This document shows positions 59,652 to 63,539 of a DNA stretch of 64,000 nt, in pieces. The stretch is from an uncultured Clostridia bacterium. GTDB taxonomy: Bacteria > Bacillota > Clostridia > Oscillospirales > JAAYOS01. Position numbers and translations under genes: made by a program. Location: contig CANRJS010000007.1 in the NCBI GenBank assembly GCA_947631015.1, forward strand, positions 1 to 64,000, in the 5' to 3' direction. Position 1 is the stretch's first letter, and each line of letters starts with the position of its first letter. The notes below the pieces were generated by a model. The model ran no database searches, had not been told where the DNA came from, and was given only the letters and a program-made list of their open reading frames with translations.

Positions 59652-60026
59652 TTACTCCACCTCGAAGAATTCTATCGACTCGCCGTCCGGCCCGAACACA
59701 AATGCGTTCGTCATCGGCGCATTGCCGCCGAGGTTGCCGTCCCGCGGTTCGCTCTTGACCGTGGCGCCGTTCGCGACGGCGCGGTCGAACGCCTCGCGCG
59801 CGTTGTCGGTGTGCAGGGCGATGTGCGCCCAGGGCTGATTCTCGCTGCCAGTGGCGTGCGGGATGAGCTCGACCGTGGCTCCCGGCGCGAGCTCGACCAT
59901 GTAGATTTTGTGGTCGTCCGGGCCGAAGCTCATAGTCACCCTGCCGCCGAGCGCCTCGGTGTAGAATTTCAGGCTGCGCGCCGTGTCGCTTACGTACAGT
60001 CCGATGTGATGATAACCCTTGATCAT
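59652..60026 (-). CDS. VOC/glyoxalase-family protein
   Basis: A 124-residue single-fold VOC protein. Possible metal ligands lie in GYHHIGLYV, ELIPHATG, AHIALHT and SIEFFEVE. It resembles lactoylglutathione lyase-like and methylmalonyl-CoA epimerase-like members, but the substrate is not determinable. The start is the ATG at 60026 about 9 nt after GGGAGGG; a longer frame lacks one. The pairing with a glycosyltransferase is unusual and may be incidental. Confidence 0.87.
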   Translation of the reverse strand: MIKGYHHIGLYVSDTARSLKFYTEALGGRVTMSFGPDDHKIYMVELAPGATVELIPHATGSENQPWAHIALHTDNAREAFDRAVANGATVKSEPRDGNLGGNAPMTNAFVFGPDGESIEFFEVE

Positions 60027-60073
60027 TTTGTTTGCCCTCCCAAAAGATATTCTCAAAGACCGTGTACGCGACT

Positions 60074-60102
60074 ATTATACTACATCTGTGCAGGCATAAC
60101 AA
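60074..60102 (-). promoter_or_regulatory. Promoter of the VOC-GT-C unit
   Basis: On the minus strand: TTGTTA, a 17-bp spacer and TATAAT, about 48 bp before the VOC start. It is back to back with the rlmB promoter. Confidence 0.7.
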
Positions 60103-60138
60103 GGCATAAAATGTTTGTAAAAAATTATCGTCACACCC

Positions 60139-60167
60139 TTTCATACGCGGTCGAAACGTGCTATAAT
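60139..60167 (+). promoter_or_regulatory. Promoter of the rlmB unit
   Basis: TATAAT (60162-60167) with an extended TGC and a weak -35 TTTCAT (60139-60144), 17-bp spacer. The predicted start near 60174 begins the leader hairpin. Confidence 0.65.
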
Positions 60168-60171
60168 ATGA

Positions 60172-60217
60172 AACAGGTATATCCCGGAATCTGTCTTCGG
60201 ATATACGCATACCTGTT
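60172..60217 (+). promoter_or_regulatory. rlmB leader with two competing hairpins
   Basis: AACAGGTAT (60172-60180) pairs with ATACCTGTT (60209-60217), which runs into TTGGAGG. GTATATCC (60177-60184) pairs with GGATATAC (60199-60206). The two share four bases, so the leader may fold in two ways next to the ribosome site. Confidence 0.5.
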
Positions 60218-60230
60218 TTGGAGGATGAGC

Positions 60231-61013
60231 ATGAGAGACGAGCGCGCGAGGGAGAGGGACGCGGCTTCCGAAGACCTCGTAGAGGGCAGGAACCCGGTGC
60301 TTGAGGCACTGGAGGCCGGCAAGATGATAGACAAGCTCTATATCGCGCGTGACCCGGACGGGACGCTCCGCCGCATCGCCGCCATAGCCCGCGAGAAGGG
60401 CGCGGCGGTGGTCGAGGTCGACCGCCGCAAGCTCGACGCGATGAGCCGCACGCGCTCGCATCAGGGCATCATAGGCAGGCTTCCGGCAAGGGAGTACGCC
60501 GAGCTTGACGACATCCTTGCGGCCTGCTCGGCAAAGCCGAAGGACACGCTGCCCCTGCTCGTCATATGCGACGGGGTGACCGACCCCAATAACCTCGGCG
60601 CGATAATCCGCTCTGCGGAGGCCGCCGGGGCGGACGGGGTGATAACCCGCGAGAGACGCGCGGCAGGGCTCACCGCCATGGTGAGCAAGGCGTCCGCCGG
60701 AGCGCTCGAGCATATACCGGTGGCGCGCGTCGCGAATATCGCGTCGCTTATCGAACGGCTGAAAGAGGAAGGCTTTTGGATATTCGGAACGGCCGGCGGC
60801 GGCAGTACGCCGCTCTATGAGACCGACTTCAACACCCCCGCTGCGATAGTCGTCGGGGCGGAGGGAGACGGAGTGAGCCGGCTCGTGCTCGAACGGTGCG
60901 ACTATACGGTGTCGATACCGATGCTCGGAAAGATGAGCTCGCTCAACGCGAGCGCGGCGGCGGCCGTCGTACTGTTCGAGGCGGTCCGTCAGCGCATGAA
61001 GAAGCAAGACTGA
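60231..61013 (+). CDS. rlmB: 23S rRNA 2'-O-ribose methyltransferase RlmB
   Basis: A 260-residue SPOUT methyltransferase; the family modifies G2251 of 23S rRNA or an equivalent. An N-terminal L30e-like domain (LVEGRNPVLEALEAGKMIDKL) is followed by knot motifs ICDGVTDPNNLGAIIRSAEA, VVGAEGDGVS and IPMLGKMSSLNASAAAAVVL. The start is placed at 60231, 6 nt after GGAGG; an in-frame ATG at 60225 abuts that site. It is followed after 18 bp by the degenerate P-type ATPase gene. Confidence 0.95.
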   Translation: MRDERARERDAASEDLVEGRNPVLEALEAGKMIDKLYIARDPDGTLRRIAAIAREKGAAVVEVDRRKLDAMSRTRSHQGIIGRLPAREYAELDDILAACSAKPKDTLPLLVICDGVTDPNNLGAIIRSAEAAGADGVITRERRAAGLTAMVSKASAGALEHIPVARVANIASLIERLKEEGFWIFGTAGGGSTPLYETDFNTPAAIVVGAEGDGVSRLVLERCDYTVSIPMLGKMSSLNASAAAAVVLFEAVRQRMKKQD

Positions 61014-61031
61014 TTAGGGCGGTGAATGCAG

Positions 61032-63488
61032 ATGGATGACAAACGCAGAGATGCTGAGCGGGACAAGTCCTCTCCGGAGGAGAGGCGCGACCCCGCGAGC
61101 ACTGCGGAGATACTTGCGGATATAGACAGGAGCGTGGAGGAGTACAGCTTCTCCATAGACGATATACTCGCGGAGTTCGGCGTGGAGCGCACGGCGGAGC
61201 CGGAGCCCGAACCCGCACCCGAGCCGGAGCCTCAGGTGCCGGCGTATGAGATGACGAGCGAGGAGCTCACCGATAAGCTCGGCGAGGTCGCGGCGAGGAT
61301 GCAGGAGGAGCGCGAGGAACAGAAGCTTCGCGAGACCGAGGAGCAGCTTCGCTCCGAGAAGGAAGAGCGTGAGCGCGCCGAGGCCGAGCGCGAACGGGAA
61401 AAGCGTGAGAGAGAGCTTGAGCTTGAGATAAAGCGGCAGGTGGAGCTTGCCGCCGACCACGTAACCGAGGAGCAGAACGAGTATCCCGCGGAGCCCGGTC
61501 AGCGGGACGAGATGGGCAGGATACATATCTTCGAGGAGGAAAAAACTCAGGACACGGAAAAGCGCCGCCGCTTCGGCGGAAAGAAGCGCGAGGACGAGGA
61601 GCCCGCCGAGCGCCGCACCGTGATGAAGGAGGCAAAGGCCGAGGAGGGAAAGAAGGTCTTCGGCGGTAAGCTCGAAGGGATATTCGGCCACGACGCGGAG
61701 TTCCGTCCGCAGCTGCGCGGCGGAGACGTGAGCGAGGAGACCTTCAAGCAGGAGCACGAGGAGAAGCTCCGCAAGCACCGCAGGAGGCGTCCCGAGCCGG
61801 AGGAGCCTGCGGCGGAGCCGTCTGAGACTGAGCCGGATATCGAACCCGAAGAGGAAGTGAGCCTGCTCGTAAGGGAGCTCGGACGGGGACGTCTGCGCCT
61901 TCTCTTGGCGGCGCTGCTCACGGCGCTGCTGGCGTTTATCAGCTTTGCGCCGTATATCGGCATCGGCCTTCCCGCGATATTCACATACGTCGAAAAGCCG
62001 TACATTTACATATTCTTCAACGTGCTGCTTCAGGTCGGGGTGATGGCGCTCTGCTTTGAGACGACGGCGGCGGGCGTGCGAGACATAGCGACCTTCCGCC
62101 CGAATATGGAGAGCGTCGTCGTATTCGCGAACCTCACGTCGCTTGTCTACCTGTTCTTCGTCGCGATAAAGCCGGAGTGGGGAGGATACTACGGATTCTC
62201 GACGGTCGGCGCGGCGTCGATGCTCGCGGCGGCGTACTACTCGAGAAAGCTGACTCTCGCGAAGCTAAAGAGCTGCCGCGCGGCGGCGGGAATGAGCCGC
62301 CCGTACATAATAGCGGCGGAGCCGGAGCTTTATGACGGAGAGAATACGGCGGTCAAATACCGCGCGCAGAAGCCGATAGGATTTGTGAGCCGCCTCAACA
62401 GTCCCGACCACGCGCGTAAGGTGTGGCGCGTGACCGCGCCGATAGTCATTTTGGCGTCGATAGTCCTCGCGGCGGTGGCGAGCTTCGGCACCGGCGGCGG
62501 GACGAGGTTCGTGTGGTGCCTCGCCGCGATATCCGCGGCGGGCGCGCCGCTGTCGCTGATGATGCCGTTCTGCCTTGCGTTCTCCCGCGCGGCAAAGCAC
62601 CTCTACGGTCTCGGCGAGGCGATAACCGGCTGGGCGGCGGCAGAGAGTCTGAGCGGCGTCACGAACGTCGTAGTCACCGACCTTGACATATTCCCGCCCG
62701 GAAACACCGCTCTGAACGGGCTCAAGGTGTACCGGGGGTACCCGAAGGACAAGGTCATAACCTACGCCGCGAGCCTGATAAACGCATCCGGCGCGGCGAT
62801 ATCACGTCCGTTTGCGGAACAGCACAGCAATCAGACGCCCGAGCCGCTGATGAAGGTACAGAACTTCAAGTTCTACGAGAACGGCGGCATCAGCGGCGAG
62901 ATAGAGGGGAATATGGTCCTCGCGGGCAGCGCGACGTTCATGGTGCGGAACAACATCAGCATCCCGAAGGACGTCAGCGGAAAGACGAACGTGTTTATCG
63001 CCGTCAATCTCGAACTCGTCGGCGTGTTTGCCGTGAGCTACAACACGTCCGGCTCGGTAAAGCGCGGACTTGCGATGCTTATGCGGCAGCACCTCATGCC
63101 GGTGTTCGCCACGCGGGACTTCAATATCACCCCGTCGATGATAGAGTCGAATTTCAGCGTCTCGACCGATACTATAGACTTCCCCAAGGAGGCGGAGCGG
63201 ATAGCGCTCTCCGACCCGGACAGGTTGTTTGTCGGAAAGATCTCCGCCGTTGTCAGCCGCGAGGGACTGAAGCATTACGCTGAGTGTATCGCCTGCGCGC
63301 GGAACCTCCGGCGCGCGGTGCGCATATCGACGGGGCTCACGCTCGCGTCGGTGGCGCTCGGTATGCTGATAATGTTCTATCTATGCTTTACTCAGACCCC
63401 GACGGTCGCGACGCCGCTGAATCTCCTGCTCTACTCGATACTCTGGCTCATCCCCGGATTCATCGCTTCCAGGTGGGCGAGCGCCTGA
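61032..63488 (+). CDS. Degenerate P-type ATPase-like membrane protein
   Basis: An 818-residue protein. Residues 1-275 are highly charged with Pro/Glu repeats, a coiled coil and Arg/Lys/Glu stretches, without a metal-binding Cys motif. Residues 276-818 follow the P1B-ATPase order: paired helices, FRPNMESVVVFANLTSLVY (matching NMD-LVALGT of copper pumps) and a membrane helix with AAGAPLSLMMPF where CPC-ALG-P is expected. VVVTDLDIFPPGN (549-558) stands in for the DKTGTLT phosphorylation site, FATRDF for TGD, no GDGxND is seen, and two closing helices end the chain. It probably cannot pump and may be a scaffold or sensor. The start is set at 61032 (alternative 61026). Confidence 0.82.
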   Translation: MDDKRRDAERDKSSPEERRDPASTAEILADIDRSVEEYSFSIDDILAEFGVERTAEPEPEPAPEPEPQVPAYEMTSEELTDKLGEVAARMQEEREEQKLRETEEQLRSEKEERERAEAEREREKRERELELEIKRQVELAADHVTEEQNEYPAEPGQRDEMGRIHIFEEEKTQDTEKRRRFGGKKREDEEPAERRTVMKEAKAEEGKKVFGGKLEGIFGHDAEFRPQLRGGDVSEETFKQEHEEKLRKHRRRRPEPEEPAAEPSETEPDIEPEEEVSLLVRELGRGRLRLLLAALLTALLAFISFAPYIGIGLPAIFTYVEKPYIYIFFNVLLQVGVMALCFETTAAGVRDIATFRPNMESVVVFANLTSLVYLFFVAIKPEWGGYYGFSTVGAASMLAAAYYSRKLTLAKLKSCRAAAGMSRPYIIAAEPELYDGENTAVKYRAQKPIGFVSRLNSPDHARKVWRVTAPIVILASIVLAAVASFGTGGGTRFVWCLAAISAAGAPLSLMMPFCLAFSRAAKHLYGLGEAITGWAAAESLSGVTNVVVTDLDIFPPGNTALNGLKVYRGYPKDKVITYAASLINASGAAISRPFAEQHSNQTPEPLMKVQNFKFYENGGISGEIEGNMVLAGSATFMVRNNISIPKDVSGKTNVFIAVNLELVGVFAVSYNTSGSVKRGLAMLMRQHLMPVFATRDFNITPSMIESNFSVSTDTIDFPKEAERIALSDPDRLFVGKISAVVSREGLKHYAECIACARNLRRAVRISTGLTLASVALGMLIMFYLCFTQTPTVATPLNLLLYSILWLIPGFIASRWASA

Positions 63489-63503: not shown

Positions 63504-63539
63504 AAAGAGGCGGGATGCACTGCATCCCGCCTCTTTGAT
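63504..63539 (+). terminator. Terminator after the P-type ATPase-like gene
   Basis: AAAGAGGCGGGATGCA and its complement (63521-63536) form a long stem with a minimal loop and T-rich end. Confidence 0.9.

Follow-up and report, generated by a model that had tools for sequence, protein, structure and literature searches.

The 818-aa protein encoded at positions 61032–63488 (+ strand) of the window, by which we mean the whole 64,000-nucleotide stretch of contig CANRJS010000007.1 that was analysed, is almost certainly a pseudo-P-type ATPase derived from the copper-type (P1B) pumps. The first-pass annotation had proposed a P1B pump architecture with catalysis lost, and this proposal was supported by the predicted fold, by a profile match and by the loss of the catalytic motifs throughout the protein family. 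Nearly all sampled genomes of a dominant gut order encode the pseudo-pump, and no Pfam model matches it; a near-universal single-copy gene without such a match is a promising place to look for an important, unrecognised function. Because the gene is kept intact and lies nearly always behind rlmB, the pseudo-pump probably has an undescribed, non-pumping job.

Locus, kinship and predicted fold

The ORF is open over its full length at the coordinates first noted. An alternative in-frame ATG is located at 61026, and the upstream sequence agggcggtg fits a start at 61032. The sequence blocks quoted in the first reading were all found where they had been placed, namely FRPNMESVVVFANL at residues 355–368, AAGAPLSLMMPF at 502–513, TDLDIFPPG at 549–557 and ENGGISGEIEGNMVLAGSATF at 616–636. 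Upstream on the same strand, rlmB (60225–61013), encoding a 262-aa 23S rRNA 2′-O-methyltransferase, is the first gene of a two-gene unit; its start was picked inside a longer ORF (59811–61013). A consensus scan detected a 15-bp hairpin, terminator-like on both strands, at 63504–63536, 16 bases past the stop codon of the pseudo-ATPase. Long minus-strand ORFs opposite the gene, including one of 254 aa at 61014–61778, were assumed to be by-products of coding bias.

A Pfam search of the protein gave no match, and NCBIfam returned weak matches to CopA and TIGR01525 (heavy-metal ATPase) over residues 461–704 (E values of 3e-6 and 1.5e-5). Profile–profile alignment with genuine P1B pumps of the class gave an E value of 2.6e-15. 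The AlphaFold model of the core (residues 270–818, built from 66 sequences) had a pLDDT of 91.8 and a pTM of 0.87 and contained eight membrane helices. When this model was compared with the PDB using Foldseek, the best match was LpCopA (4bbj, E value of 1e-17), CopA 7r0g was matched with a TM-score of 0.60–0.62, and the best 50 matches were P-type ATPases throughout. The comparison with CopA suggested in the first reading thus yielded a P-type fold, and an unrelated fold was rejected. Taken together, the NCBIfam, profile–profile and fold results place the P-type kinship of the protein beyond chance. A viral fold library gave ordinary P-type ATPases of giant viruses as its sole matches. The genome that carries the pseudo-pump also encodes three pumps with DKTGT, TGE and GDGxND.

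The model and the profile alignment together indicate the layout of the protein. A charged head (residues 1–277; 61032–61862) precedes two membrane helices (272–309 and 323–353; 61845–62090), which are probably equivalent to P1B helices MA and MB. These are followed by the M1–M2-equivalent helices (359–379 and 390–419; 62106–62288), with the NMD-like PNMES at their start, a β-hairpin that is the remnant of the actuator domain (425–444; 62304–62363), and the M3–M4-equivalent helices (460–485 and 490–527; 62409–62612). The cytosolic part comprises TDLDIFPPG (62676–62702), a nucleotide-binding-type (N) domain (559–670; 62706–63041), whose GxG region is kept as (N/G)GG, and RDFNITP (695–701; 63114–63134). 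The last two helices (746–786 and 795–817; 63267–63482) correspond to M5–M6. The protein therefore shares with P1B-type ATPases (CopA; 4bbj and 7r0g; TIGR01525 and NF007952) the overall fold, the eight-helix membrane domain, the N-domain, part of the P-domain, the NMD-like sequence and the order of elements, but differs from them in lacking CPC, TGE, DKTGT, HP and GDGxND, in its reduced actuator, in a P-domain deletion and in having a disordered head in place of the metal-binding domains.

Catalytic motifs and new invariant residues

In the profile alignment with P1B pumps, DKTGTLTEG paired with TDLDIFPPG without gaps, so that Thr549 stands at the place of the phosphorylated Asp. The first-pass annotation was therefore right in putting TDLDIFPPG at the phosphorylation site, but its candidate for phosphorylation, Asp550, lies one residue beyond the catalytic position, and phosphorylation there is unsupported and not a natural prediction. 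CPC paired with GAP (504–506), and TGD with TRD (694–696). The actuator domain, which spans more than 100 residues in pumps, is reduced to the β-hairpin and lacks TGE. Approximately 33 P-domain residues, including the GDGxND region, are missing, indicating that this motif, reported as changed or missing, was deleted with the part that carries it rather than mutated. The claim that every catalytic motif had been changed or lost accordingly held for CPC, TGE, DKTGT and GDGxND, whereas TGD is altered only in its Gly and retains Asp696.

The same losses were observed across the family. Among 121 distinct family proteins, none contained DKTGT, GDGxND or CPC, and none carried a CPC, CPH, CPS or SPC metal site; homologues with an intact DKTGT, the finding that would have marked the window protein as a decayed single case, were thus looked for and not found in this set. 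Counted wherever they stood in the sequence, the string TGE[ASP] occurred in a single member (L016) and TGD in four of the 121, and an xHP string was present somewhere in the core of 14, while HP was absent from the aligned N-domain site in the window protein and in the members listed. Judged from its sequence, the protein falls outside the P1B pumps on every catalytic feature checked. It also departs from the HAD phosphatases, which combine a DxD motif I with an acidic motif IV: a DxD-like pair is present and a GDGxND-type motif IV is absent.

Other residues at the old active-site loops have become nearly invariant. Conservation was counted in 48 non-redundant members (pairwise identity below 70%), in which Asp550 and Asp552 were each kept in 41, Phe554 in 46, Pro555 in 43, Arg695 in 38, Asp696 in 47, Asn698 in 45, Gly619 in 46, and Gly632 and Trp805 in all 48. 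The Gly of TGD was replaced by Arg in the 38 members with Arg695. Position 549 was more variable (Thr in 25, Ser in six and Asp in four of the 48), and distant members with Asp at this position lacked the pump-type Lys-Thr-Gly after it, some of them also lacking Asp550. The central block, suspected earlier of being a new functional motif, was conserved family-wide as TDxDLFPPG. On sequence grounds this is a new signature of the family, with RDFN as its counterpart where TGD used to be; a functional role would fit this conservation. In P-type pumps the DKTGT and TGD loops meet in the active site, so that, if the fold is kept, Asp550, Asp552, Arg695, Asp696 and Asn698 would meet in space in the pseudo-pump as well. 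Such a near-invariant acidic cluster exceeds the needs of a pure scaffold and could reflect a ligand site or unrecognised chemistry.

Distribution, selection and gene context

The order to which the family belongs was called Oscillospirales-type from its named relatives (Flavonifractor, Pseudoflavonifractor, Papillibacter and Oscillospiraceae). In 40 relatives, amino acid identities to the pseudo-pump were 91–97% within the genus (64% over a partial copy in genome G003), 38–46% within the family and 20–36% across the order. A profile search of 291 genomes of the class detected near-full-length proteins in all 12 genomes of the own order (E values of 1e-75 or better); in the 279 Clostridia genomes of other orders the family was not found, and the matches there, at best 1e-36, came from ordinary pumps and covered only the part of the profile common to both. 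Within the order, 109 of 117 genomes carried the protein at E≤1e-50 (92 of 96 among good-quality genomes), and none had more than one match at this threshold. In a sample of the phylum, two of 200 genomes matched, both belonging to the order. The pseudo-pump seems to have become fixed in the order's common ancestor.

The core is under strong purifying selection. Relative to the three closest relatives, dN/dS (ω) was 0.06–0.08 in the core and 0.06–0.16 in the head; relative to the more distant L005, values near saturation were obtained (0.25 and 0.39, respectively). A decaying pump gene retained by chance, for which the loss of every catalytic motif might speak, is hardly credible, since the gene is an order-wide single copy free of stop codons in 108 of the 109 matches, its ω is low, and its new residues are conserved as in an enzyme. 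The possibility of a decayed single case, raised in the first reading, is refuted by the same data, and the family-wide motif loss combined with purifying selection characterises the protein as a conserved pseudoenzyme. The sole member with an in-frame TGA (L018, genome G030) may represent a sequencing error, decay or recoding.

The gene rlmB was found directly upstream on the same strand at all 68 testable close loci, with a median gap of 37 bp, and at 19 of 20 loci of distant families, the window itself being one of the 20. The expectation that the two genes are always adjacent therefore held with one exception, locus L164 (genome G010), where obgE, named by eye and also ribosome-linked, takes this place. 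No other neighbour was found to be constant across families. Co-transcription of rlmB and the pseudo-pump gene is likely, and the pseudo-pump may also be functionally linked to RlmB. An ftsH-like gene was observed divergently upstream of rlmB, mainly in the Flavonifractor-like branch (L061, L071, L073, L088, L100 and others).

Head motif and proposed functions

In the model of the full-length protein the head was mostly disordered, a large part of it scoring a pLDDT below 50; helices were predicted at residues 79–142 (a long charged helix, 61266–61457, with pLDDT of approximately 76–92 for most of its length), near 237–251, and at 42–50. The 275-residue charged domain described earlier was therefore correct in length and charge, but it is a mostly disordered arm rather than a folded domain, and it differs between family members in both length and sequence. 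Its conserved element is the short linear motif FSIDDILAEFG (residues 40–50; 61149–61181), which includes the short helix. Across the family the motif reads FSLDDILAEFG, and its strict form was present in 64 of 96 heads, which are phylogenetically non-independent; when each head was shuffled, the mean was 0.055. Not every member needs the motif, because a third of the heads lack the strict form and family f9 (L170 and others) has nearly headless members of approximately 550 aa consisting of the core alone. A relative at L229 has three similar copies.

The head-motif pattern had a single match in the own genome. In related genomes it was detected in flexible-looking tails of further membrane proteins, at the very C-terminal end of LspA in two genomes (L185 and L213) and near the N-terminus of MltG (L198, L199, L200 and L249), a TagG-like ABC permease (L223–L226), a sortase (L228) and a separate degenerate pump (L186). 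Pfam assigned L185 and L213 to signal peptidase II, L198 to YceG, L223 to ABC2_membrane and L228 to Sortase; the other carriers were assigned by similarity on sight. A tag system of the order can be imagined in which FSLDDILAEFG on the cytosolic tails of the pseudo-pump, LspA, MltG, a teichoic-acid-type ABC exporter and sortase docks to one common partner, the dead pump being the most widely conserved client or the hub; judged from sequence, we consider this unlikely. Matches also occurred in folded helices of glycosyltransferase-like, FtsY-like and phosphatase-like proteins (by eye), which counts against the motif as a unique tag, and 16 matches lay outside the order; a shared tag is therefore a lead and not a result. 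At L243, a protein of 293 aa that appears to have a membrane segment at its N-terminus carries an acidic tail ending in YDIDDILNEFSGKGNK.

We favour, with a probability of roughly 0.45, a reading drawn from what is missing, in which the pseudo-pump would serve in the membrane as a scaffold or receptor, without pumping, and would be co-expressed with RlmB. On this simplest reading the pump body, unable to run the pump cycle, would have been retained for binding: the phosphorylation site, actuator and Mg site are gone, but the membrane core is intact and the N-domain stays, with a cleft that would have been rebuilt. The old catalytic centre may have turned into a fixed site that brings together Asp550, Asp552, Arg695, Asp696 and Asn698, with Arg695 in the place of the TGD Gly, the backbone of which holds the phosphoryl group in pumps; with such a site, the cytosolic N and P lobes would act as a rigid module for interactions. 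The flexible head would reach into the cytosol and hold a partner through the helical motif. On this sequence the protein would neither hydrolyse ATP nor move metal.

Next to the scaffold or receptor we place a ligand sensor, a clearly less probable reading, in which the cleft between the N- and P-domains would still bind a small molecule, such as a nucleotide, without hydrolysing it and would report its level to a cytosolic partner. The N-domain fold is retained with high confidence in the model, the GxG region and Gly619/Gly632 are nearly invariant and the conserved acidic, Asn and Arg cluster faces the cleft by homology; however, HP, which positions adenine in P1B pumps, is lost and Arg replaces the TGD Gly. 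Ranked third, and somewhat more doubtful, is a regulatory or obligate partner subunit, the dead pump packing on an active transporter or envelope enzyme and controlling it. The complete eight-helix core, its conserved helix residues, among them Trp805 and Pro808 of the last helix, and the recurrence of the head motif on tails of envelope membrane proteins are consistent with such a role, but rlmB is the sole constant neighbour across families and no transporter gene is constantly nearby. Because the P-domain of P-type ATPases is HAD-derived, the well-kept Asp550-x-Asp552 and Asp696 might suggest a repurposed HAD-type enzyme with a phosphatase-style DxD pair and a new activity. This is improbable, since motif IV, which binds Mg in HAD enzymes, is absent from all 121 members, Asp550 is offset by one residue from the nucleophile position, and some distant members carry an Asp at 549 instead of 550. 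More improbable still is an active unorthodox ATPase or a passive ion channel formed by the retained membrane helices, given that DKTGT, GDGxND and CPC occur in no member and an actuator domain with TGE is lacking.

The family lends itself to asking what else a pump body is good for once it no longer pumps, and its conserved head motif gives direct access to the partner, by peptide pull-down. A literature search, with most subscription papers outside its scope, found nothing on dead bacterial P-type ATPases, on the head motif or on the pair of rlmB and pseudo-pump; as far as the searched literature shows, dead P-type ATPases are undescribed as a stand-alone bacterial family. The nearest published parallel found was guanylyl cyclase beta of Plasmodium falciparum, which carries a degenerate P4-ATPase domain that has lost most signature residues and is evolutionarily kept (PMC6592433). 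That domain is eukaryotic, of P4 type and fused to a cyclase, whereas the pseudo-pump is bacterial, of P1B type, stand-alone and encoded beside rlmB. A second degenerate pump, the 629-aa P0002 (L186, 1038–2924, − strand), has NKTGT for DKTGT and SEAGHD at the place of GDGxND. It was rejected as an evolutionary intermediate because it is a singleton, no close relative having turned up in 114 genomes. P0002 resembles the pseudo-pump in its shortened actuator region, its short head motif and its mutated catalytic Asp, but it retains HP and TGDN and is a separate, independent case.
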